A stretch of DNA of 64,000 nt, from contig NZ_JAHBAH010000001.1 in NCBI RefSeq assembly GCF_020510425.1, positions 4,073,001-4,137,000 on the forward strand, read 5' to 3'. The position numbers and the translations under genes were made by a program. Below the pieces are notes generated by a model. The model was not told the DNA's origin. It ran no database searches and worked only from the letters and a program-made list of their open reading frames with translations. This DNA is from Quatrionicoccus australiensis. GTDB taxonomy: Bacteria > Pseudomonadota > Gammaproteobacteria > Burkholderiales > Rhodocyclaceae. Of the stretch, positions 13,170 to 40,356 are shown piece by piece (within the stretch, counting starts at the first letter, position 1; each line of letters opens with the position of its first letter).

Positions 13170-15647
13170 ATGAGCGATTTGCTGACGACGGTTCTGCTGG
13201 TTGAGGACAACCCGGGCGAAATCGGGCTGATTACCGGTGCCCTGGCCGGGGCGCCCGGGCAGGTGTTTTCTGTCGCGACGGCAAATTGCCAGGCGGCAGC
13301 GGTCGACCGCCTGGAAAAGGGCAAAATCGATGTCGTCCTGATTGATCTGGGCTTGCCGGACGGGCAGGGCATGGCCCTCTTCGAGCGCGTCTTCATGATG
13401 CAGCCCGGCATCCTGATCATTCTGCTCTGTGCGCCGGCCGACGAAGAAATCGCCCGTCTCGCCGTGCAGCGCGGTGCCGAGGATTATTTCGTCAAGGGCC
13501 ACGTCGATGCGCACTGGCTGCCGCGTGCCCTGCATTACCTGATCGAACGCAAGGCAACGCGGGAAGCGCTGCGCGAGAGCGAGGCACGCTTTCGCGCGAT
13601 GAGCGACGCGTCGCCGCTCGGTATTTTCGTGTCCGATGCGCAGGGCGACTGCATCTACACCAATGCCGCTTACCACGAGATATCCGGGCTCAACCTGGAA
13701 CAGACCCTGGGCACCAGCTGGAGCATGGCGATTCACCCGGACGACAGGCAACGCATTGTCATCGCCTGGCGCGATGCGGTGCGCGGCGACGAAGCCTTCC
13801 AGGCCGAGGTGCGCTTTTTGCGCCGTGATGGCAGCATCGTCTGGACGCGCCTGAATGCGGCGGCGATGCGCGATGGCTGGACCTTGCGCGGGCGCGTCCA
13901 GATCGTCGAGGACATCACCGCCCGCAAGGCCGTCGAAGCCGAGTTGAAACAGATACAGGAAGACCTGTTCGCGGAGAAGGAGCGTGCCCAGGTGACGCTC
14001 AACTCGATCGGCGATGCCGTGCTGACGACCAATCTGCAGGCCAATGTGACCTATCTCAATCTGGTCGCCGAGGCGATGACTGGCTGGTCGCGCGAGGATG
14101 CGCTGGGCCGGCCGCTCGCCGAGGTCTTCCGGATCGTTGACGGGCAGAGCCGGAAAGTGGCAGAGAGTCCGGCCCTGCGGGCGATGAGCGAGGACCGGGT
14201 GGTCGGGCTGGCTGCCAACAGCATGCTGATCCGGCGCGATGGCAGCGAAGCGGCGATCGAGGATTCCTCGGCGCCGATTCATAACCGCGACGGCAAGGTG
14301 GCCGGTGCGGTGATCGTCTTTCACGATGTCAGCGCCTCGCGGGCGATGGCGCAGAAAATGTCGCATCTTGCCCAGCACGATTTCCTGACCGGCCTGCCGA
14401 ACCGGCTGCTGCTCACCGAGCGGCTGTCGCAGGCGATCGGCCAGGCGCACCGTCACCGCAAGCAGGTCGGGCTGCTTTTTCTCGATCTCGACTATTTCAA
14501 GAACATCAACGACTCGCTCGGGCACCTCATCGGCGACCAGTTGCTGCAATCGGTGGCCGGGCGCCTCGCCAGCTGCGTGCGCAATACCGATACGGTCTGC
14601 CGCCAGGGCGGCGACGAGTTCGTCATCCTGCTCGCCGAGATCGAACAGCCGCAGGACGCGGCGCAGATTGCCGAAAAGTTGCTTGCCTCGCTGCTCACGC
14701 CGCATCTGATCGATGGCCACGAACTGCATGTGACCCTGAGCATCGGCATCAGCATCTACCCGAACGACGGCATCAGCGCCGACAGCGCCATGCAGAACGC
14801 CGATACCGCGATGTATTACGCCAAGGCCAATGGCCGCAACAATTACCAGTTTTTCACCAGCGACATGAATACCCGCGCCGTGCAGCGCCTGCTCGTCGAG
14901 AACAGCCTGCGCCGTGCCTTGAGCAAAGGCGAGTTCGAACTGCACTACCAGCCGAAGATGGACATCGCCTCCGGCCGGATGATCGGCAGCGAGGCGCTGC
15001 TGCGCTGGAAGGACCCGAAGCTCGGCATGATCTATCCCGGCCAGTTCATCCCGGTTGCCGAAGAATGCGGTCTGATCGTGCCGATCGGGCGCTGGGTCTT
15101 GCGCGAGGCCTGTCGCCAGGTACAGGCCTGGCTGGCAGCCGGTCAGCCAGCGGTGCCGGTGTCAGTCAATATTTCGGCGGTGGAGTTTCGCCATGTCGAT
15201 TTTCTGCCGAGCGTTGCCGCGATTCTTGCGGAAACCGGCCTGCCACCGGGCTATCTCGAACTGGAACTGACTGAAAGCATCCTGATGCACGAGGCGGCAT
15301 CGTCGGAGTCGATGCTGACCGCACTCAAGGGCATGGGGCTGAATCTGGCGATCGACGATTTCGGGACCGGCTATTCCAGCCTCAGCTACCTGAACCGCTT
15401 TCCGATCGATACGCTGAAGATCGACCAGTCCTTCCTGCGCGATATCGCGACCAACGCTGACAACGCCACCATTGTCAGCGCGGTGATCGGCATGGGGCAA
15501 AAGTTGAAGCAGAAGGTGGTCGCCGAAGGGATAGAAACGGCCGAACAACTGGCTTTCTTGCGCGATGAGAAATGTGATGGCGGGCAGGGCTTCCTGTTCA
15601 GCTACCCGGTGTCGGCGGAGAATTTTGTTGCCTTGATGAATAGTTAA
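13170..15647 (+). CDS. Receiver-PAS-PAS-GGDEF-EAL c-di-GMP enzyme
   Basis: 825-residue cytoplasmic signalling protein. Order: receiver (about 7-125, Asp59 in LIDLGLPDG), PAS (about 140-260), PAS (about 270-395), GGDEF (about 400-560) and EAL (about 575-820). The diguanylate cyclase motif is intact (GGDEF at 480-484) with an RNTD inhibitory I-site five residues before it. The phosphodiesterase side is also intact (EAL at 608-610, DDFGTGYSSL, KIDQSF, EGIET). It can therefore be bifunctional. A receiver domain at the N-terminus suggests control by an unlinked kinase. Start 13170 has AAGGA nine bases upstream. Confidence 0.92.
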   Translation: MSDLLTTVLLVEDNPGEIGLITGALAGAPGQVFSVATANCQAAAVDRLEKGKIDVVLIDLGLPDGQGMALFERVFMMQPGILIILLCAPADEEIARLAVQRGAEDYFVKGHVDAHWLPRALHYLIERKATREALRESEARFRAMSDASPLGIFVSDAQGDCIYTNAAYHEISGLNLEQTLGTSWSMAIHPDDRQRIVIAWRDAVRGDEAFQAEVRFLRRDGSIVWTRLNAAAMRDGWTLRGRVQIVEDITARKAVEAELKQIQEDLFAEKERAQVTLNSIGDAVLTTNLQANVTYLNLVAEAMTGWSREDALGRPLAEVFRIVDGQSRKVAESPALRAMSEDRVVGLAANSMLIRRDGSEAAIEDSSAPIHNRDGKVAGAVIVFHDVSASRAMAQKMSHLAQHDFLTGLPNRLLLTERLSQAIGQAHRHRKQVGLLFLDLDYFKNINDSLGHLIGDQLLQSVAGRLASCVRNTDTVCRQGGDEFVILLAEIEQPQDAAQIAEKLLASLLTPHLIDGHELHVTLSIGISIYPNDGISADSAMQNADTAMYYAKANGRNNYQFFTSDMNTRAVQRLLVENSLRRALSKGEFELHYQPKMDIASGRMIGSEALLRWKDPKLGMIYPGQFIPVAEECGLIVPIGRWVLREACRQVQAWLAAGQPAVPVSVNISAVEFRHVDFLPSVAAILAETGLPPGYLELELTESILMHEAASSESMLTALKGMGLNLAIDDFGTGYSSLSYLNRFPIDTLKIDQSFLRDIATNADNATIVSAVIGMGQKLKQKVVAEGIETAEQLAFLRDEKCDGGQGFLFSYPVSAENFVALMNS

Positions 15648-32454: not shown

Positions 32455-32471
32455 AGTTTACATAATACAAA
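32455..32471. other. attL: XerD-like arm and core of dif
   Basis: AGTTTACATAA (32455-32465) matches 9 of 11 positions of the E. coli XerD arm read as ATTTAACATAA. The central hexamer TACAAA (32466-32471) is identical to that in attR. The bases beyond (ACGCCCCAGCG) do not resemble a XerC arm and come from the phage. So the left junction holds only half a site and should be poorly recombinogenic. Confidence 0.8.
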
Positions 32472-32838
32472 ACGCCCCAGCGGCGAAAGTCAGTATTGGT
32501 GCGGCTTCAGCGGGGGCCGCTGTCACAAAGTTTGTGACAATTCCCATAATTAGCGCATAACTCGCCATTTTCCCGAAATTCTGCGCATTTGTGACAAAAG
32601 GGAGCCAGAAAGCGCGTTTCTCCTCCTTCCGCTCTGTTGCTAGTTCCGACGCTGCTATTACTGCTTTTAGCTCAACATTTAGCAGTTCCGATAATTTGAC
32701 GCATGCCATGGCCGGAAGTCCTCGCTGATGGGCCTTTGCGTTGGTTATATTGTTAGGAATAACGCCGAGATAGTCAGCTAACGCAGTAACGCTGCCTTTT
32801 TCAATAATTCCCGCTTCGATGTAGTCGCGCAGTTCCAT
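32458..32838 (-). CDS. Phage DUF3693-type regulator with C-terminal membrane segment
   Basis: 126-residue protein encoded opposite to the rest of the phage. The N-terminal helix-turn-helix (about 5-60: VTALADYLGVIPNNITNAKAHQRGLP) and the following ELKAVIAASELATERKEEKRAFW segment are typical of the DUF3693 inovirus family, thought to act as repressors. A hydrophobic C-terminus (about 92-126) follows. ATG 32838 has AAAGGA six bases upstream; the longer frame upstream is unsupported. Its stop (TAA, 32458-32460) is completed by host DNA at attL; in circular phage DNA the frame would extend 20 codons. Three operator-like repeats lie between it and rep. Confidence 0.8.
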   Translation of the reverse strand: MELRDYIEAGIIEKGSVTALADYLGVIPNNITNAKAHQRGLPAMACVKLSELLNVELKAVIAASELATERKEEKRAFWLPFVTNAQNFGKMASYALIMGIVTNFVTAAPAEAAPILTFAAGAFCIM

Positions 32839-32862
32839 TTCTAGTCCTTTAGCCATATTGAC

Positions 32863-32921
32863 CAACCAAAATTGATTGCGCTTAAATGCGATCAAATTTG
32901 GTTGTCTATCAATTTCGGTTG
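32863..32921. promoter_or_regulatory. Three operator-like repeats between the phage regulator and rep
   Basis: Three related 14-base elements: CAACCAAAATTGAT (32863-32876), then in the opposite orientation ATCAAATTTGGTTG (32891-32904) and ATCAATTTCGGTTG (32908-32921). The first two form a large inverted repeat. They fill the gap between the divergent regulator and rep genes, as operators of a phage lysogeny switch would. The rep ATG begins one base after the third copy. Confidence 0.7.
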
Positions 32922-34325
32922 ATGGGTCGACGATATCACAAGGGGCGTTTTGTGCGAATTCGCAAAAGTAACAAGCTGAAAGCTGTGTCTCCCGAACTGG
33001 TCGAGACTGCATCGCGCATGACTGCGGATGATTTCCGCACTGCCTTTGATCCGCTCGGCGCAGATCTGGCTCACCTCAAAAAACTAGACGTGCAAAACAA
33101 AGCTTCGCAACAGCGCCTTGCTCATACCTATGCTCCCCGGCTCCGCGGCGCGGAGCGGCCCGACGCGAAGGAGGGCGCGCAGCGCGGCGGATGCCCCCCC
33201 CATGCTAACAGGGGGGAAAAAGGTTCCGAAGGGGCAGAGCACGTCAAACTGGTGATTGAGGGTGGGGTTTTGAAGGAAGTCCCCAAGCGTCGCGGATTTG
33301 GTGGGGATTCCGCCTTCGTTGATTGGGTCAATTTCACCTTCAGTGAAGAGACCATTCTTAGCACTTCCCGTTCTGCTCGCCGTGTTGTGGAAATCGACGG
33401 CGAACTGTCGGAAGAATTCGACGGTGCAAACGGCATGGTTCCGGTGACGGATTACGAAGTCATGGTTGCCATGTCGGCCCGACTTGAATTCATCTTTGGC
33501 TTCGGTATCCGTGGCAAGCGCGGAAAGGGCATGCACTTCTACCGCGATTCGTGGGATATCGGCGATTCATGGGGCGTTGTTTGCCACGGCGGCAACCGCG
33601 GTAGCGTCCTCGTATCAATCAATGGTTCCGGGCTGGCAGCGGCCAAAACAGGCTGGGAAATGCGCCTGAAAAACTTCCTTGAAACTGCTGATCGTGGTCG
33701 TCTGACTCGCGTCGACTTCGCCCATGACGATTTCACGGGCGAGACATACAGCGTCGACAAGGCTGATCGCGACCATACGGACGGCCTTTTCCACATTCAC
33801 GGCATGCACCCGGACTGTGAGCATCGCGGCAACTGGAAACACCCGAACGGCAAGGGGCGCACCCTCAACATCGGCAACCGTAAAAATGGGAAGTTCTGCC
33901 GGGTCTATGAAAAAGGTCGCGAGCTGGGCGACAAAAACAGTGATTGGGTGCGCATTGAGGTCGAGTTTAAAAACGTCGACCGCGTTATCCCCCTGGACTG
34001 CTTGCTCGCTCCCGGTGAGTACCTCGCCGCGTCCTATCCGGCCTTTGCGTTCATCAGCGAAAAACAGTCACGCATCGAAACAAACCGGCGTGTTGCACAA
34101 GCCAATGTTGATAGCACCTTTGACTGGCTCCGCCATCAATGCGGTGCGTCCATCGGTCGTCTTGTCGATCTGTTCGGCGCAGATGACGTCCTGAAAAAAG
34201 TCGTTCGCGATGGCTTTCCGGCGTGGTTCAAGGTGCCCGACTTCAAGCTGGCTCCTGAAAGCATCCATCAATTTAGCCGTCAAGTTTTTCCGGTTGTCCT
34301 TTCTGAACAAGCTGCCGTCTGGTAG
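32922..34325 (+). CDS. Phage replication initiation protein (Rep_trans family)
   Basis: 467-residue rolling-circle replication initiator, functional equivalent of Ff pII. The conserved core (about 130-440) includes FVDWVNFTF, the LTRVDFAHDDFTGE metal-binding-like segment and the FCRVYEKGRELGD motif followed by WVRIEVEFKN, as in PF02486. An N-terminal region of about 110 residues is poorly conserved in appearance and contains a GC-rich, hairpin-bearing insert (33140-33216) that may be the replication origin. No good ribosome site precedes ATG 32922; starts further downstream (e.g. 33018) cannot be excluded. Confidence 0.85.
   Translation: MGRRYHKGRFVRIRKSNKLKAVSPELVETASRMTADDFRTAFDPLGADLAHLKKLDVQNKASQQRLAHTYAPRLRGAERPDAKEGAQRGGCPPHANRGEKGSEGAEHVKLVIEGGVLKEVPKRRGFGGDSAFVDWVNFTFSEETILSTSRSARRVVEIDGELSEEFDGANGMVPVTDYEVMVAMSARLEFIFGFGIRGKRGKGMHFYRDSWDIGDSWGVVCHGGNRGSVLVSINGSGLAAAKTGWEMRLKNFLETADRGRLTRVDFAHDDFTGETYSVDKADRDHTDGLFHIHGMHPDCEHRGNWKHPNGKGRTLNIGNRKNGKFCRVYEKGRELGDKNSDWVRIEVEFKNVDRVIPLDCLLAPGEYLAASYPAFAFISEKQSRIETNRRVAQANVDSTFDWLRHQCGASIGRLVDLFGADDVLKKVVRDGFPAWFKVPDFKLAPESIHQFSRQVFPVVLSEQAAVW
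33140..33216. other. Hairpin-rich segment inside rep, candidate replication origin
   Basis: A perfect 7-bp hairpin (GCTCCGC / GCGGAGC with GGC loop, 33140-33156) is followed by a very GC-rich stretch. Then a run of eight C (33194-33201) faces six G (33211-33216) across a short loop. The encoded residues are low-complexity (Arg/Gly/Pro/Ala) and sit outside the conserved Rep domain. Rolling-circle phages often carry the nick site next to hairpins within or near rep. That this is the origin is inference. Confidence 0.45.
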
Positions 34326-34345
34326 CACAAATGGAGATTCAAAAA

Positions 34346-34645
34346 ATGGAAGCAAAAACGCAATGTCTGGTACTCGGTGCCAAGTTCTTCAAGGGCGAAA
34401 TTGAAGGTCAGCATCACGACATGACCAAGCTTTTCGTAGCCATGCCGGTGTCGGAGAAGGATACGGCCAGCTACGGCAAAGCTGGCCATGATGCGATTGA
34501 CCTCAAGTTCGGTACCTCGGAAGAGTATCAAAAGCTGAAGTCTCTCCCGTTTCCGATCATGGCCGAACTCGGCCTGAAGCTGACGACGGACGGCTATGAA
34601 GTGCTGTCCTTCCGCGCCATTTCGCAGCAGCCAAAGGCCGCTTAA
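34346..34645 (+). CDS. Phage single-stranded-DNA-binding protein (gV-like)
   Basis: 99-residue protein in the position of the Ff gene V product, directly after rep. It has the beta-rich pattern of small inovirus SSBs (CLVLGAKFFKGEIEG, LFVAMPV, GYEVLSFRAISQ). It should coat new viral strands and switch replication to packaging. I prefer ATG 34346, which has GGAG nine bases upstream, over the in-frame ATG at 34331 that has none. The next gene starts two bases after its stop. Confidence 0.75.
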   Translation: MEAKTQCLVLGAKFFKGEIEGQHHDMTKLFVAMPVSEKDTASYGKAGHDAIDLKFGTSEEYQKLKSLPFPIMAELGLKLTTDGYEVLSFRAISQQPKAA

Positions 34646-34647
34646 TC

Positions 34648-34887
34648 ATGTCTCTGCTCGACGTTCGCAGGGTTTATGTCGTACAGGACCGGGCGACCGG
34701 TTCGTTCGTCGACATCAATATGAGCTTCGTTTTTTCGCTCAAGCATGCGGCGCGGGCAGAGTCTCTTGATGTTGTACGGGAGTCGATGAACTGCGCGATC
34801 TATGACGGCACGCTGGATTGCCCGATGGGCTATGACGTTCACACCTTCTTCGTGCCGGCCAACGAGTGGGAAGCGTCCGCGTCATGA
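34648..34887 (+). CDS. Small phage protein, unknown function
   Basis: 79-residue protein with no signal peptide and no membrane segment. It starts with DVRRVYVVQDRATGSFVD, a beta-hairpin-like segment, and has two cysteines flanking MGYD near the C-terminus. Located between SSB and the secreted 88-residue protein, whose start overlaps its stop by four bases (ATGA). I do not recognise a family. Position suggests an early or assembly-related gene. Confidence 0.65.
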   Translation: MSLLDVRRVYVVQDRATGSFVDINMSFVFSLKHAARAESLDVVRESMNCAIYDGTLDCPMGYDVHTFFVPANEWEASAS

Positions 34888-35150
34888 CTCGCTTAAATCT
34901 CTCGATGCTCTGGCTTCTCTTCTCTTTTCCGTGTCTTGCTCACGCTGATACGGCCATGGAAATCATCTATGGCAAGTGGGTCAAGGTCACTCCGTCAGAG
35001 GTTCTTAAGCCCGTGTCGGACTACGTTCCGCCGCGCTCCGCTGCTGGTGCTGTCACCAACGAATATAAGCGCAAGCCGGAGGGGCAGGTTGTTATTCACG
35101 CCTTCCAAAATCCCGTTCCTGCGCCCTTCGTAAAGCCGGGGTCCAAGTAA
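34884..35150 (+). CDS. Exported small phage protein, unknown function
   Basis: 88-residue protein with a signal peptide (LSMLWLLFSFPCLAHA, cleavage near residue 21). The mature part of about 66 residues is Pro-rich and basic. It is translationally coupled to both neighbours: ATGA overlap upstream and TAATG overlap downstream. It may be a minor virion or periplasmic assembly protein; I recognise no family. Confidence 0.65.
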   Translation: MTRLNLSMLWLLFSFPCLAHADTAMEIIYGKWVKVTPSEVLKPVSDYVPPRSAAGAVTNEYKRKPEGQVVIHAFQNPVPAPFVKPGSK

Positions 35151-35401
35151 TGGCCGTCTGCACCTCTCTTGCCCTTGTCTCCGGTGTCCAGGTGCTGTCT
35201 CCGACTGCCGTTGATCCATCGGTGTGCTCTGGCCCTGTCGTCCTGTCCTCGACTGAATATGTCAATTGGACTGCCCAAATAGCCGCGTTCGGCTGGGATT
35301 CTGGTCTGTTTGAAAAGACATGGCAGGGTGGCCTGCTCATTTTTGCTACTGGTTTCGGTGTCGGCCTGCTTATTTCTCTAGTCCGAAAGCTTCGCGTCTA
35401 G
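35150..35401 (+). CDS. Small phage membrane protein, possible minor coat
   Basis: 83-residue protein with two Cys near the N-terminus (Cys4, Cys26) and one membrane helix near the C-terminus (LLIFATGFGVGLLISLV) ending in basic RKLRV. No cleavable signal peptide is clear. The helix plus a short basic tail and the position immediately before the major coat gene suit a minor coat protein (pVII/pIX role), by inference. The start overlaps the previous stop (TAATG). Confidence 0.65.
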   Translation: MAVCTSLALVSGVQVLSPTAVDPSVCSGPVVLSSTEYVNWTAQIAAFGWDSGLFEKTWQGGLLIFATGFGVGLLISLVRKLRV

Positions 35402-35465
35402 TTCCTGCTGCGTCGATCTTGAACAGTCGACGCGGTTTATCCAACCTCTCTAAAGGAGAAAAACC

Positions 35466-35684
35466 ATGTTCAATCGTGCTTGTTCCCGTGTTGCCATTGC
35501 CGCCTCTGGCGTTTTCGCTTTCGCCATGTCTGGTCTTGCCGCTGCTGCGGTCGATACCACTGCGGTTGAAGCTGCTCTCACGACTGCGCAGGGTAGCGGT
35601 GAAGGCGTTGGCGGCAAGGTCATTGCTGTTGTGGCCGGTCTGGTCGTCGTCGGCGTGATCATCGCCCTCGTCAAGAAGATTTAA
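35466..35684 (+). CDS. Major coat protein (pVIII-like)
   Basis: 72-residue precursor. A signal peptide runs to about Ala27 (SGLAAAA). The mature protein of about 45 residues has an acidic/amphipathic N-terminal helix (VDTTAVEAALTTAQ), a glycine hinge, a membrane helix (KVIAVVAGLVVVGVIIALV) and a basic KKI tail that would face packaged DNA. This is the classic inovirus major coat layout. A strong ribosome site (AAAGGAG) and an immediately downstream terminator match its need for high expression. Confidence 0.9.
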   Translation: MFNRACSRVAIAASGVFAFAMSGLAAAAVDTTAVEAALTTAQGSGEGVGGKVIAVVAGLVVVGVIIALVKKI

Positions 35685-35691
35685 GGGTGAT

Positions 35692-35741
35692 TCAGGGCGC
35701 ACTTCCTCTGCCTCGCATTGGGAGTGCTGTCCTGATTTTTT
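35692..35741 (+). terminator. Terminator after the major coat gene
   Basis: Outer stem TCAGG / CCTGA and inner stem GCACTTCC / GGAGTGC (one bulge), followed by TTTTTT at 35736-35741. A terminator after gene VIII is a conserved feature of filamentous phages (seen in Ff) and separates highly expressed genes from the minor-coat and morphogenesis genes. Confidence 0.85.
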
Positions 35742-35766
35742 CCACTTCAAAAAACGGGGCGTTTCG

Positions 35767-35838
35767 GTGATATCAATCCTTGTTGGCGCTCTCCTTGTTG
35801 CCGTCTTTGTTATCGGCGTTCGGATCGGCTCTCTATGA
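35767..35838 (+). CDS. 23-residue membrane peptide, possible minor coat protein
   Basis: GTG-initiated frame of 24 codons between the coat terminator and the pIII-like gene. The product is a single hydrophobic helix (SILVGALLVAVFVIGV) ending in RIGSL. Its TGA overlaps the pIII ATG by four bases (ATGA), which is the coupling used throughout this operon. Ff pVII and pIX are similarly tiny (about 32-33 residues). The ribosome site is weak (GGGG nine bases upstream). Too short for standard gene calling. Confidence 0.6.
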   Translation: MISILVGALLVAVFVIGVRIGSL

Positions 35839-37178
35839 TCGCCCGTCTATTTCTCGTTGTTCTCGCGCTGCTCTCTGCGCCGTCGTTTGCTGCGGATCCG
35901 GCGATTCCCGCGACAAAGGAAACAGCCGTTAAGGTTGATGGTTGGGTGACCGATAACGGTGCCTATTTCCCTAAAGGTAAATTTCAGGAAGGTCCTTTGA
36001 CTCTTGCCGGTGGTATATCGGCTTGTAAGGCGTTTCAGCCTCCGGGGTCTAGCGAGTATCTATCTTTTACTCCTAATTCGGACATTACCGCTGGTAACTG
36101 CATCTGGCGTGATGCTGTGGTTTCTAATTGGGTGGTTCAGTTCGCTATTGTTGTTTACAAGCATTGTCCGGCGGGTTACTCGGATGTCTCGGGGGTTTGC
36201 GAAAAGTGGGTTTGTCCAACTGGTTACACTGGTCCGACTATGATCGGCACCGTCCGCATGTGTGAGCCGTCTAATCCTTGCGCTGATCGCGACAAAAAGC
36301 CTAACGACTTTCTCTGGGTTTCCTACAACAAGGGGCAATCCCCATACGGCTATCGCTGCAAGGATGGTTGTACGGTTTCCCAGACTGGCCCTGTCTCGCA
36401 TCCCACAATGAACCCTAACGGCGACTGGTACACCGGCGGAACTGCCGATCGTCACGACTTAATGCAAATTCAATATTATGCAATTAAGTGCGAAGCCAAT
36501 GCCCCTCAGTCGTCCCAAGGCGACCAGCCCCCGCCCAAGGTTCCTCCTGTTCCTAAGGCTCCAAAATGCGACCCCGGCGAAGGCGTGCTCACCACTTCTA
36601 CCGGCAAGGTTGCCTGCGTTCCTGAGGGCACCATGGGTGCAGCAAAGCCCGCCGAGTCTGACACGCAAAAACGCGAAGAAGATGCCAACGGCGTAAAAAA
36701 CACGACGAAAAACACGACAAAAGACCCTGTTACCGGTGCCACAACCGTTACGGAAAAAACAACGGATGCCAACGGCAATGTAATTTCTAGTTCGTCGTCC
36801 TCCAGCGGTGCCGGTGGTGGTGGCGATAATTCGGGTGACGAGCCCGGCCAGTGCGCCAAAGAGCCGGATTCACCTATCTGCAAAAAAGGCACCATCAAGG
36901 ACAAGGGCAATTACGGCACTGATCAGGACGGCAAGCTAGAACAGGCGAAGGCTGAACTATCGGCTAAGTTTTCCGAGATTCGCGGCGCTTTGTCTAACCA
37001 GTTTCGCTATAACGGCTCCACTGGCGGCGGCTCGTTGCCATGCCCTGCGCCCGTCACTGTCCTCGGCGCGACTATCTCGTTTTGTGTGGCTGACTACTCC
37101 TCTAGCCTCTCGGTCATTGGCGATATTATTGTTTTCGCAGCCACCATCATTGCTGCAATCATCGTGGTGACTGCCTAA
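35835..37178 (+). CDS. pIII-like minor coat/attachment protein
   Basis: 447-residue exported protein in the gIII position. Signal peptide to about residue 19-20 (PSFA). An N-terminal cysteine-rich receptor-binding region (about 21-225) contains EGF/lectin-like spacing (CPAGYSDVSGVCEKWVCPTGY). A Pro/Lys/Thr and then Ser/Gly-rich linker (about 225-340, including seven consecutive Ser) leads to a C-terminal domain with a final membrane anchor (about 424-446). Attachment proteins vary by host, so similarity to Ff pIII is architectural only. Base composition is more AT-rich than host genes. Confidence 0.8.
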   Translation: MIARLFLVVLALLSAPSFAADPAIPATKETAVKVDGWVTDNGAYFPKGKFQEGPLTLAGGISACKAFQPPGSSEYLSFTPNSDITAGNCIWRDAVVSNWVVQFAIVVYKHCPAGYSDVSGVCEKWVCPTGYTGPTMIGTVRMCEPSNPCADRDKKPNDFLWVSYNKGQSPYGYRCKDGCTVSQTGPVSHPTMNPNGDWYTGGTADRHDLMQIQYYAIKCEANAPQSSQGDQPPPKVPPVPKAPKCDPGEGVLTTSTGKVACVPEGTMGAAKPAESDTQKREEDANGVKNTTKNTTKDPVTGATTVTEKTTDANGNVISSSSSSSGAGGGGDNSGDEPGQCAKEPDSPICKKGTIKDKGNYGTDQDGKLEQAKAELSAKFSEIRGALSNQFRYNGSTGGGSLPCPAPVTVLGATISFCVADYSSSLSVIGDIIVFAATIIAAIIVVTA

Positions 37179-37498
37179 TGTTTGAGTTCCTAAATTCAGT
37201 ATCGGATTTCTTCCAGTTCGGCATATACGGCTGGTTTGAAGAGACCGCGATTTACCTCACGTCGACGCTGCTTATCTGGTGGGTTAAAGCGCAAATTTCA
37301 TCCATTGAATTCGCTTGGGGTGTCGCGCAGCAGATCCTGCAGGGCTTCGATGTGGCGTCGAAGATCGCACTCGGTTTTTCCCAGCTTCCCGGTGATGCTG
37401 CGGCTACCGCTGCATTTTTCCGCTTTCCCGAAGCTGTTAGCATCATCGTGAGCGGCGGCGCTACTCGCTTCGTTCTCCGTATGCTGCCGGGGTTCTAA
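37178..37498 (+). CDS. pVI-like (DUF2523) minor coat protein
   Basis: 106-residue membrane protein with hydrophobic segments near 20-38, 60-75 and 85-100, located between the pIII-like gene and zot, the pVI position. Pattern (FGIYGWFEETAIYLTSTLLIWW) fits the DUF2523 inovirus family, which forms part of the virion terminal cap. It overlaps both neighbours by one base (TAATG). Confidence 0.8.
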   Translation: MFEFLNSVSDFFQFGIYGWFEETAIYLTSTLLIWWVKAQISSIEFAWGVAQQILQGFDVASKIALGFSQLPGDAAATAAFFRFPEAVSIIVSGGATRFVLRMLPGF

Positions 37499-38691
37499 TG
37501 CCCATTAAAATTCATCACGGCCCCCCAGGGTCATTTAAGACGGCTGGGGCCATGGCAGATGACTTCATCCGCGAAGCCAAGGCGGGGCGCTTGATTGTTA
37601 CCAACGTTCGAGGGGTCACAAGGGAGCGCGCCTTAAAGGTCTTTCCAGACCTGCCGGATACCTTCGATGTAATCAATGTTCCCGATACCGACGAAGAAGG
37701 GCGCAAGCGGTGGGCTGAGTGGTTCCACTGGGTGCCTAAAGGTGCCTTTATCTTCGTTGACGAAGTGCAAGACATCTGGCCGAAGCGCTGGAAAGAAGCC
37801 GACATTCGCGCCCTCGACTATCCGGGCGGCTTGCGCAAAGCTACCGCCGATGATCGCCCGTTCTGCTGGGATCAGGCGTGGGATAAACACAGACATTGGA
37901 ACTGGGATATAGTCGCCACCTGTCCCGCTTATTCAAAGGTTCGCGAAGATATTAAGGCTGTTGCAGATGCTGCGTACAAGCATAAGGACCTTGCGCTGAT
38001 CGGTTGGACTGGTCGCTATGTTGAGGCGATGCACCTCGCGGACGATACTGGCAAGGCGCAGTCTGATTTCCTGACCATCCAGCAAAAGAAGGTTCCTTCC
38101 CATGTCTTTAAGCTCTACGACTCAACCGCCACAGGCGCATTCCGCGTCAATGCCAACGGCTTCAACCTTTTCAAGTCGCCTCGCGTCGCGTTACTTCTCG
38201 CTGTACTGTGCGGCGCTCTCTATATGGGCTTTGCTGGCCCTCCCATTAAGCTCTTTCCGGGTTCTCCTTCGGTGGCTACTGCAAACCCCGGCGGCGCGGC
38301 TTCTTCGTCGTCTGGTGCTCAGGTTAGGCCTGTTTCTACTGTCGCTGTATCTCCTGTCGATTTTTCTAAGGATGCTCGCGTAGAGCCGTTGATTGATGGT
38401 GATGCCTTCATTCTCGCTTCGTTCCGTGGTGCCGGTCGTCATATGCGCTATGAGCTTCGCCACAAGGGCGCGCGCATCACTGACGAGGATTTGCTTGATA
38501 TGGGCTACGCCGTCACGCCTCGCGGCTTCTGTGGCCTGCACGTTGCGCGTGATGGCTTCCAGCGGTTCATAACCTGCGACATTCCCAAGGAAGAGCGCAG
38601 GGAACGTGAGGCTGAAAAGAGTGTTGTCGCTGCTGACAAGGGCAGGGCGGGGCGTGATTCTGTTCCTGTCGATCCTCCCTTAAATGGTTAG
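37498..38691 (+). CDS. Zot-family assembly ATPase (pI-like)
   Basis: 397-residue inner-membrane morphogenesis ATPase. Walker A GPPGSFKT (8-15), Walker B with Asp88-Glu89 in FIFVDEVQD, one membrane helix (about 231-250) and a periplasmic C-terminal domain of about 145 residues. It drives extrusion of phage through a secretin. No pIV secretin gene is present, so a host type II/IV secretin is the likely partner. Overlaps the pVI-like gene by one base. Confidence 0.92.
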   Translation: MPIKIHHGPPGSFKTAGAMADDFIREAKAGRLIVTNVRGVTRERALKVFPDLPDTFDVINVPDTDEEGRKRWAEWFHWVPKGAFIFVDEVQDIWPKRWKEADIRALDYPGGLRKATADDRPFCWDQAWDKHRHWNWDIVATCPAYSKVREDIKAVADAAYKHKDLALIGWTGRYVEAMHLADDTGKAQSDFLTIQQKKVPSHVFKLYDSTATGAFRVNANGFNLFKSPRVALLLAVLCGALYMGFAGPPIKLFPGSPSVATANPGGAASSSSGAQVRPVSTVAVSPVDFSKDARVEPLIDGDAFILASFRGAGRHMRYELRHKGARITDEDLLDMGYAVTPRGFCGLHVARDGFQRFITCDIPKEERREREAEKSVVAADKGRAGRDSVPVDPPLNG

Positions 38692-39003
38692 CGTCGGGAG
38701 TGTCGCGGGCGGTGTCACAAGTGCTGCGGCGACGCCGCCGCAATAGACGCCCTCCGCATCCTCGGCTATCGTCCTGGTTAGATCGCACTAGACTAGACCG
38801 ATCAGCGGGTCATATGACCAAAGCCGACCCCGAAGGCCATGCACTCAAACCGCTCACCCCTCTACAAACCCGCTTTTTCCTCTTTGGTGCTGGCTGTAAT
38901 TCATTTTCTAGGCCTGATAGATCAGGGCGCTAGGCTGGTGAGCCCCGGCCTGTAAGGGATTCGCTAGTATAAAATGATAGTTTCATCATCTCGGGAGGGT
39001 CGC
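38692..39003. other. Phage intergenic region with hairpins
   Basis: 312 bases without a convincing gene. It contains a 7-bp hairpin TGCGGCG / CGCCGCA (38725-38742), a perfect 12-base palindrome GGTCATATGACC (38808-38819), a 5-bp hairpin CCTGA / TCAGG (38913-38926) and a -10-like TATAAA near 38970 for the next gene. Such a region after the morphogenesis gene is where filamentous phages keep the packaging signal and complementary-strand origin; assignment is inferred. Confidence 0.5.
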
Positions 39004-39384
39004 ATGCGCTATCTATTTTTGCTGTTGTTGTTAGCGGCTCAATTGGCCAGCGCTGACGCTTACAAATGCAAAGGCGAAAATGGTAAGGCGGTCATTACTG
39101 CTACGCCATGTGAGGCTGGCTATACGGGCGTAGGTGTGGCCAGGTCAGATAGCACAGACCAGCACTCATATAATCAAGCGCAGGCCGATCTGCGTCGTCA
39201 AAAAGAATGGCTTGCGGGTCGTGAGGAAGCTCAGCGAAGGGATGCTTCAATCGCTCATCGTCAGTCGTCAGTTGCTGCGCTTCCGTCGCCTCCGGTTCCA
39301 GAACAGTCCAGTTCCGGTTCGATTTTTGATAAGTCGTGGGGCTGCGGCGGTCGTTCGTGTCCTTCAACAGCTACAAGGCGTTGA
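39004..39384 (+). CDS. Exported DUF4124-domain protein carried by the prophage
   Basis: 126-residue protein with signal peptide (LFLLLLLAAQLASA) and an N-terminal DUF4124 unit (YKCKGENGKAVITATPCEAGY), followed by a Gln/Arg/Ser-rich tail. DUF4124 proteins are common periplasmic proteins of betaproteobacteria; a host member is at 50904-51383. GGGAGG precedes ATG 39004. It is not part of the known inovirus core and may be a cargo (moron) gene. Confidence 0.75.
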   Translation: MRYLFLLLLLAAQLASADAYKCKGENGKAVITATPCEAGYTGVGVARSDSTDQHSYNQAQADLRRQKEWLAGREEAQRRDASIAHRQSSVAALPSPPVPEQSSSGSIFDKSWGCGGRSCPSTATRR

Positions 39385-39396
39385 TTTCATCGGGTC

Positions 39397-39687
39397 GTGT
39401 TTCAGTTTTCGCTTTTCCCGGCTGACACAAAAAGCCATTTCGGTGCGATTGCCAATTACTACTGGCAGCTTCGGGCGATTCGTCCGCATCAAGGCGCTAG
39501 GCGGCGGTGGTTGTATCGTCAGATAGCGAAACATAAGGCCATTTTGATTGCCGATGGATACGACGTGGAACTCTTGCGTCTGTGGTGCCGGCAGTGGGCA
39601 AGGTGCTATCGCGAAGAGTCCAGGGTGCGTTTTCAGGTCTATTTACAAAATAATTCGACTATTTCGCAAAAAACCCGATGGACATAA
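39397..39687 (+). CDS. Hypothetical protein at the prophage right end
   Basis: 96-residue basic protein with an aromatic-rich N-terminus (HFGAIANYYWQLRAIRPHQGARRRWLYRQIAKHKA) and two cysteines in a WCRQWARC motif. No signal peptide or membrane helix. GTG start at 39397, 12 bases after the preceding stop, no clear ribosome site. It ends 12 bases before the dif arm. The composition looks coding, but I do not know the family. Confidence 0.55.
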   Translation: MFQFSLFPADTKSHFGAIANYYWQLRAIRPHQGARRRWLYRQIAKHKAILIADGYDVELLRLWCRQWARCYREESRVRFQVYLQNNSTISQKTRWT

Positions 39688-39699
39688 AAATATTCTGCG

Positions 39700-39727
39700 A
39701 CTTAACATAATACAAATTATGCGTGTA
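39700..39727. other. dif: attR / chromosomal dif site
   Basis: XerD arm ACTTAACATAA (39700-39710, 10 of 11 matches to E. coli ATTTAACATAA), hexamer TACAAA (39711-39716), XerC arm TTATGCGTGTA (39717-39727, first seven bases identical to E. coli TTATGCGCACC). It is a complete 28-bp dif, reconstituted from a phage XerD arm and the host XerC arm. It should remain functional for chromosome dimer resolution. Confidence 0.88.
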
Positions 39728-39741
39728 TTTGATCCCGCAAA

Positions 39742-39760
39742 AACCACCTTTTCGGTGGTT
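39742..39760 (-). terminator. Bidirectional terminator beside dif
   Basis: Stem AACCACC / GGTGGTT with TTTTC loop. On the minus strand it is followed by TTTTGCGG, suitable for ending the gene at 39772-40356. On the plus strand it is followed by CTTGTTTC and may stop transcription leaving the prophage. Confidence 0.8.
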
Positions 39761-39771
39761 CTTGTTTCGAC

Positions 39772-40356
39772 TTAGCGTTTTGCCGGTGAAAACGATTCTT
39801 CCTCGATCAGCCAGTGTCCTTCGCTACGCCGCAATTGCAGTTTCTTGATGCCCTTGTCGCTACGGATCTGCGAGCGATAGTTCTGCGAGAACGTCACGGT
39901 TGCCTGATTCAAGGAGTCGACAACGATTTTCGGCTCGCCCAGCGTCAGCTCGATTTTTCCGGCCTGCGCGATAACGCGTTTGCGACTGGCCTGCCAGTTT
40001 GCCGGGCCAACTTCGCGTCCCTTGAAGTTCGGCGTGTAGAACGCCAGGTAGGCATCGACATCACGGGCTGCCCAGGCGTCGCGCCAGGCATTCAGAGTGC
40101 TGCGAATCTCGCTTTCCGTCGTCGGGCCTGATTCAGCGGCCTTGCTGACAGGTGCCGCAGCTGCCGGACTGGCGGCAACACTCATCGGCACGGCGGTTTC
40201 AACGCTCGCCTCTGTTTTGCCACTCGTCTGGACGCTTTCGCTTTGTGCCGGTGCATCGAACAGCCAGTCAATCGTCTTGTTGCAGCCGGACAACCCCGGA
40301 AGGATTGCCAGCGCGGTCAATAGTCCAACGGTGCCTTGTCCAAATACCCTTTTCAT
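39772..40356 (-). CDS. Lipoprotein with SnoaL/NTF2-like (Cds6-type) domain
   Basis: 194-residue lipoprotein: lipobox LSGC near residue 25, an Ala/Pro/Ser/Glu-rich linker (about 30-85), then an NTF2-like domain (about 88-192) starting TESEIRSTLNAWRDAWAARDVDAYLAFYTPNF. This domain resembles the C-terminal Cds6/L,D-transpeptidase-associated module. Function unknown, probably envelope binding. ATG 40356 follows GGGAG. First host gene right of dif. Confidence 0.8.
   Translation of the reverse strand: MKRVFGQGTVGLLTALAILPGLSGCNKTIDWLFDAPAQSESVQTSGKTEASVETAVPMSVAASPAAAAPVSKAAESGPTTESEIRSTLNAWRDAWAARDVDAYLAFYTPNFKGREVGPANWQASRKRVIAQAGKIELTLGEPKIVVDSLNQATVTFSQNYRSQIRSDKGIKKLQLRRSEGHWLIEEESFSPAKR

Follow-up and report, generated by a model that had tools for sequence, protein, structure and literature searches.

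That integration of a phage can trim its own regulator is not a new idea: it was proposed for phiRSS0 and is a tested switch in the mycobacteriophage BPs. In the Ralstonia phage phiRSS0, attP lies within ORF13, and the accessible part of the report describes a new stop on integration that shortens the product from 156 to 130 amino acids (aa); different functions of ORF13 before and after integration are proposed there, with the data cited to a manuscript in preparation (Yamada 2013, PMC3816273). For BPs, the accessible text describes a gp33 prophage form of 103 aa that is active and a viral form of 136 aa that is degraded via a C-terminal tag (PMC4557955). The Xanthomonas phage XacF1 has its attP in the coding region of a putative regulator, ORF12, which integration may split according to the portion of the paper available (PMC4076744). 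A phage resolvase and a different att core are given for phiRs551 in the available description, and the accessible part of a paper on a Cupriavidus inovirus contains nothing on the regulator C-terminus.

The DNA analysed here (the window) is a stretch of 64,000 nucleotides from Quatrionicoccus australiensis (contig NZ_JAHBAH010000001.1, positions 4,073,001 to 4,137,000). It holds one integrated inovirus of 7.2 kb at dif (32460..39716, both att cores included), recognised by its core pair and its inovirus gene set. The 12-bp core ACATAATACAAA is present at attL (32460..32471, forward strand) and at attR (39705..39716, forward strand); these two copies at the prophage ends were the only ones in the whole 4.31-Mb assembly, and the core appeared in 0/100 shuffles of the window, which places the repeat beyond chance. 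Between the cores, and in inovirus order, the forward strand carries a replication initiation protein (Rep_trans, 32886..34325, E 5e-29), a coat protein candidate (35466..35684, phrog_2145, E 1e-10), a protein in the pIII position (35835..37178, function assigned from gene order, with phrog matches all of unknown function), a DUF2523 minor coat protein (Ace-like, 37178..37498, from domain and phrog matches) and a Zot/pI-type assembly ATPase (37498..38691, PF05707, E 3e-49). The insertion site is of dif type with a short shared core, as in XerCD/dif-integrating inoviruses; no phage integrase was seen in the prophage, and from the site we infer that XerC/XerD would be the recombinase. At attR a complete dif-type site (39699..39726, reverse strand) is formed by a phage XerD arm and a host XerC arm, named after the usual layout of dif. 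The phage-side XerC arm at attL deviates from dif.

When the empty site was rejoined in silico, a complete dif was obtained, the XerD arm of which starts TGTAAACTA. The same arm was found in the dif sites of two other genomes of the genus (L040 and L055, in G013 and G028), and no regulator relatives were found in either genome. Since the rejoined site is a dif and its arm matches those of these two genomes, the assignment of host and phage flanks holds. An earlier reading made from the letters of the window (the sequence-only reading) had taken the 12-bp repeat as the prophage boundary, and both the two genome copies and the rejoined dif arm known from other genomes bear this out. The cumulative GC skew of the window has its maximum at 36001-40000, as expected for a dif at the replication terminus. 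Of 76 genomes in the genus, 59 had sites of dif type (at most one mismatch to the pattern). Thirty dif loci were read and three were excluded as ends of prophages of this inovirus family; in the remaining 27, only partly screened for other prophages, the base after TATGT was T in 15 and A in 12. Two of these loci (L042 and L044) had a distant regulator match within 150 bases.

The regulator gene is on the reverse strand at 32458..32838 and encodes, when integrated, a helix-turn-helix (HTH) protein of 126 aa (phrog_638 transcriptional regulator, E 9e-11). Its C-terminus reads GAFCIM, ends in the core and is followed by TAA, and the TAA (32458..32460, reverse strand) is formed at attL: the T (32460) belongs to the core and both A's (32458-32459) to the host. 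The sequence-only reading had claimed that the last codons lie in the core and that the stop borrows host sequence, and two of the three stop bases are indeed host. Directly beside the core the host has an A and the phage a T, and this difference is decisive. The in-silico attP reads ATG TTA AGT CGC..., with TTA in place of TAA, and the frame runs on into a phage-coded tail of 20 codons plus stop (39643..39705, reverse strand), which is fused to the regulator only in attP. The form predicted from this join has 146 aa (126 plus LSRRIFLCPSGFLRNSRIIL); its stop codon lies at 39643-39645, where the sequence-only reading had given 20 more codons and a TAA "near 39642". No circular copy of the window phage was found in the viral contigs, and 0 of the 31 exact TTTGTATTATGTTAAG matches in them carried its left arm.

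The window tail is the second shortest among 16, with 20 aa vs 41 aa in each of the near relatives L004, L111 and L151. It looks shortened, because the same-frame translation past its stop still resembles the tails of these three phages. A short AT-rich stretch borders the XerD arm on its outer side in the window (39680-39716) and in L151, L004, L111 and L114 (in relatives it reads AAAATATTTT); it is common to phages that read it in different frames, which hints at a role at the DNA level near att.

The arrangement recurs in relatives. The homologue set comprised 152 proteins (99, plus 52 more from the best 120 of 416 proteins, giving 151, plus the query), and a recognisable core was found in 131 of them among the matches listed: 53 stop at the core, 15 run on for 1-14 residues and 63 for at least 15. 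All three frames of the core are in use (CIM, FVLC, YYV), and short and long forms can be close kin (P0014/P0003, 88% over 126 aa; P0037/P0041, 87%).

For the exchange itself, regions round 35 regulator matches and the earlier loci were searched for core pairs, which gave 14 two-ended prophages; L136 was excluded because its two ends are identical over 52 bases counted from the core, leaving 13 informative ones. The phage tail is exchanged on integration in all 13 (the window and 12 relatives). Among the nine frame-a prophages, the frame stops at once in the host arm in 9/9 (with just two host bases known for L004) and the phage arm is open in 9/9, with tails of 15-41 aa. The frame-b prophage L113 is the mirror image: a host T stops the frame, and with the phage A it is open for 40 codons. 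With frames a and b taken together, the host arm stops at once in 10/10 and the phage arm is open for 15-41 codons in 10/10. Integration of the frame-c prophages L114, L112 and L138 replaces phage tails of 36, 36 and 33 residues by host-coded ends of 39, 14 and 11 residues. A rule of stopping exactly at the core is broken by frame-b endings KV/KIV and frame-a endings LNQR/LSCRY, which were also found.

Three of ten viral contigs tested (L006, L061 and L062) carried direct repeats at their termini, of 55, 141 and 99 bases, as is typical of circular assemblies. In these the regulator passes through the core into 29-36 further codons; because they carry it in real sequence, the long form in the inovirus family is more than an in-silico construct. 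A first pattern scan of viral contigs gave 31 matches, mostly unrelated; four of them (L147, L151 with a weak match, L159 and L171) combined a dif-like site with a regulator-profile match on the strand concerned; L147 is the same contig as L058, and L159 the same as L004. A second scan gave 56 matches, also mostly unrelated: L006 was already in the set and the other 55 had no profile match. Little was added by a further viral scan (eight loci, most already in the set) and an order-wide genome search (4/399 genomes). At the level of sequence, a regulator with one C-terminus in the free genome and another in the integrated genome is well supported. This part of the interpretation offered by the sequence-only reading stands (13/13 prophages and three circular contigs); as an idea it had been published for phiRSS0.

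Three further features of the relatives were observed. The 52 bases from the core of the excluded prophage L136, identical at 13969 and 5940 (regulator strand), resemble a tandem array, the inner junction of which would encode a free-type regulator inside the chromosome. In nine of 20 loci scanned (L115, L117, L118, L121, L128, L129, L142, L144 and L080) the regulator relative extends at its 3' end into a gene for tRNA-Phe, -Pro, -Ser or -Lys, and phages that target tRNA genes may likewise have the end of the regulator gene on their attachment site. Finally, the linker between a conserved TNFVTPxPAEAAP stretch and the core varies fast and shifts the core frame even at 92% identity before the core (P0049/P0055, P0054/P0055 and other close homologues).

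Compared with the described systems, the window phage resembles phiRSS0, another inovirus at dif, in which attP falls on the 3' end of an HTH regulator gene in reverse orientation, the product loses its C-terminus on integration, and a like hypothesis on function was put forward; phiRSS0 is a Ralstonia phage, and its ORF13 is likened to the window regulator by its published description rather than by sequence. XacF1, compared by description as well, is also an inovirus at dif with attP inside a regulator, and the two ORF12 forms are not analysed in the accessible part of that paper. The likeness to BPs lies in an attP inside the repressor gene and in a protein shortened by integration (the viral form of gp33 is 33 aa longer), which the window shares at the level of sequence. 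BPs differs, as far as its available text goes, in having its own integrase and an ssrA-like tag, whereas no integrase was seen in the window phage, whose tail ends RIIL. An ssrA-like tag was not concluded to be the general role of the tail, as the endings of the long forms vary: AAA, AAT, QAI, QPI, QTV, ATP and others, with IAA and VAA in prophages.

The explanation that we favour as a whole, and hold to be moderately probable, is an integration-dependent repressor switch with two forms, the short one being the stable repressor. Host XerC/XerD would put the inovirus into dif, and the attP core would supply the last codons of the phage HTH regulator. As long as the genome is circular, the phage XerD arm would leave the frame open and add a basic C-terminal tail; in the lysogen the host XerD arm would give a stop directly after the core, and the tail would be lost. 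Probable targets of the regulator are the repeats that precede the replication gene. Lysogeny is probably maintained by the tail-less form as a stable repressor, and the tailed form would be weaker, unstable or different, as in BPs. The analysis establishes the sequences, both reading frames and their repeated occurrence among relatives; production of the two proteins, repression of replication by the regulator and an effect of the tail on its activity are inferred. By the precedent of BPs, it is reasonable and plausible that the regulator would act as a sensor of integration state.

For the protein itself, matches to phrog_638 and phrog_4441 identify an HTH domain. In the model of P0003, a relative that is 71% identical and in the long form, the HTH covers residues 1-80 with a mean pLDDT above 90 and is followed by a long helix to residue 105 and then by a low-confidence tail. 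Cro, HigA and P22 C2 were among the listed PDB structural matches, none of which reached E 0.001, and a Pfam YdaS_toxin match on the regulator was below its cut-off (18.9 vs 30 bits). Operator-like repeats (CAACCAAAATTGAT, with two inverted partners) lie between the regulator and rep at 32863..32921, and 7 of 13 phages had palindromes, with a different sequence, flagged at comparable positions. The HTH model and these repeats support, without proving, a role of the regulator as repressor of replication. Separately, the TNFVTPxPAEAAP stretch follows a moderately hydrophobic segment in the window (32503-32562, regulator residues about 93-112) and in relatives; by eye it looks like a signal-peptidase-type A-x-A motif, and A112 is invariant in the alignment. 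The best 19-residue hydropathy of the regulator is only 1.45, so a membrane segment is uncertain.

The two forms could exist and their difference still be neutral: the gene would merely end at attP, an antisense gene would keep the tail free of stops, and the regulator would work alike in both states. We consider this reading possible, if rather unlikely. It fits the tail lengths, which were within chance in each of 16 genomes (p 0.13-0.65 in base-composition shuffles; 0.44 for the window, whose tail is short); tail length, unlike the ACATAATACAAA repeat, is not beyond chance and was rejected as a sign of selection. It also fits the presence, on the strand opposite the tail, of a small conserved phage gene (39397..39687, forward strand; phrog_27692, E 2e-5), which has relatives in 11/11 phages examined and is codon-aligned with the tail in 8/11 (the exceptions being L114, L112 and L006). 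The gene end RQLTLF, read antisense, gives tail motifs such as KQRQL. Because this conserved gene sits opposite, conservation of the tail peptide can be passive, and a description of the tail as a plainly conserved domain was scaled back once the gene, which inflates apparent conservation, had been found. The rates inside the overlap, however, go the other way: third positions of the antisense gene differ less there (0.449 over 167 codon pairs, vs 0.561 over 312 outside) and second positions more (0.329 vs 0.189), and this comparison of six non-independent pairs from four phages points weakly to a double constraint on the overlap.

Neutrality is also at odds with the matching of core frame and arm base, seen for phage arms and host arms alike. 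The phage arm base was A in 0/10 frame-a vs 2/2 frame-b cases (Fisher 0.015, shared ancestry ignored), and the host arm base was A in 9/9 vs 0/2 (Fisher 0.018, shared ancestry ignored; the second frame-b host is L110, the other end of which was not found and the arm of which was taken as host). Identities within the frame-a set go down to 31% (G009/L134). This comparison of frame against arm was not met among the listed open-licence papers on this theme in inoviruses or filamentous phages, and it may still be published.

The tail frame, too, is kept when the core frame shifts. A profile was made of 34 frame-a tails and no others, and with the 99th percentile of 1160 shuffled tails as cut-off, 17 of 29 frame-b and frame-c tails matched it; the 12 that did not are what a neutral difference would allow. 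In P0054 and P0055 the core frames differ and the last 25 residues are common. Where DNA was at hand, the phage's own frame scored best in 8 of 11 cases, with L111 and L134 still below the 99th percentile; the tail DNA of L114 and L112 is read in another frame than the profile-matching one, and that of L006 matches in no frame. We regard this keeping of frame across core frames as better evidence for selection than the overlap rates, and take the tail to be selected in many, though not all, members.

In an opposite logic to that of BPs, the tailed form would be the active one, for example on host genes or at the membrane, and integration would turn it off. Yamada (2013) proposes, in the accessible text, that the full-length ORF13 of free phiRSS0 regulates host genes and that the truncated form keeps the prophage, and the tails are net basic in 16/16 phages, which would suit such an activity. 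The remaining frames of this DNA also give a basic charge (a mean of 4.0 per 40 residues vs 6.2 in the tail frame), which makes the charge weak evidence, and we judge an active tailed form to be unlikely, and somewhat less probable than a neutral difference. Misplaced prophage ends or a defective element, in which case the predicted attP would never form, would agree with the missing circular copy in the viral contigs and the deviating XerC arm at attL, but are very improbable given a core unique to the two prophage ends, an empty-site join that yields a dif arm known from other genomes, and the presence of the core inovirus genes.

The two-form repressor switch, with the short form as the stable repressor, is the account that we carry forward. 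Its extension to the family of dif-integrating inoviruses is tentative: the regulator would be a two-state switch with the host dif arm as a working part, the phage arm would be kept open in whichever core frame is used, and stable lysogeny would favour hosts whose dif arm supplies the stop.

The same arrangement recurs across many related environmental inoviruses, and the analysis gives independent comparative support to the 2013 proposal for phiRSS0. Should the two forms be functionally different, the repressor would be set by insertion itself, and a single host dif base would decide the outcome. If the family-wide two-state switch is true, host dif alleles would have a part in which phages are able to settle, and the origin of integration-dependent immunity in these inoviruses would be independent of the mycobacteriophage systems.
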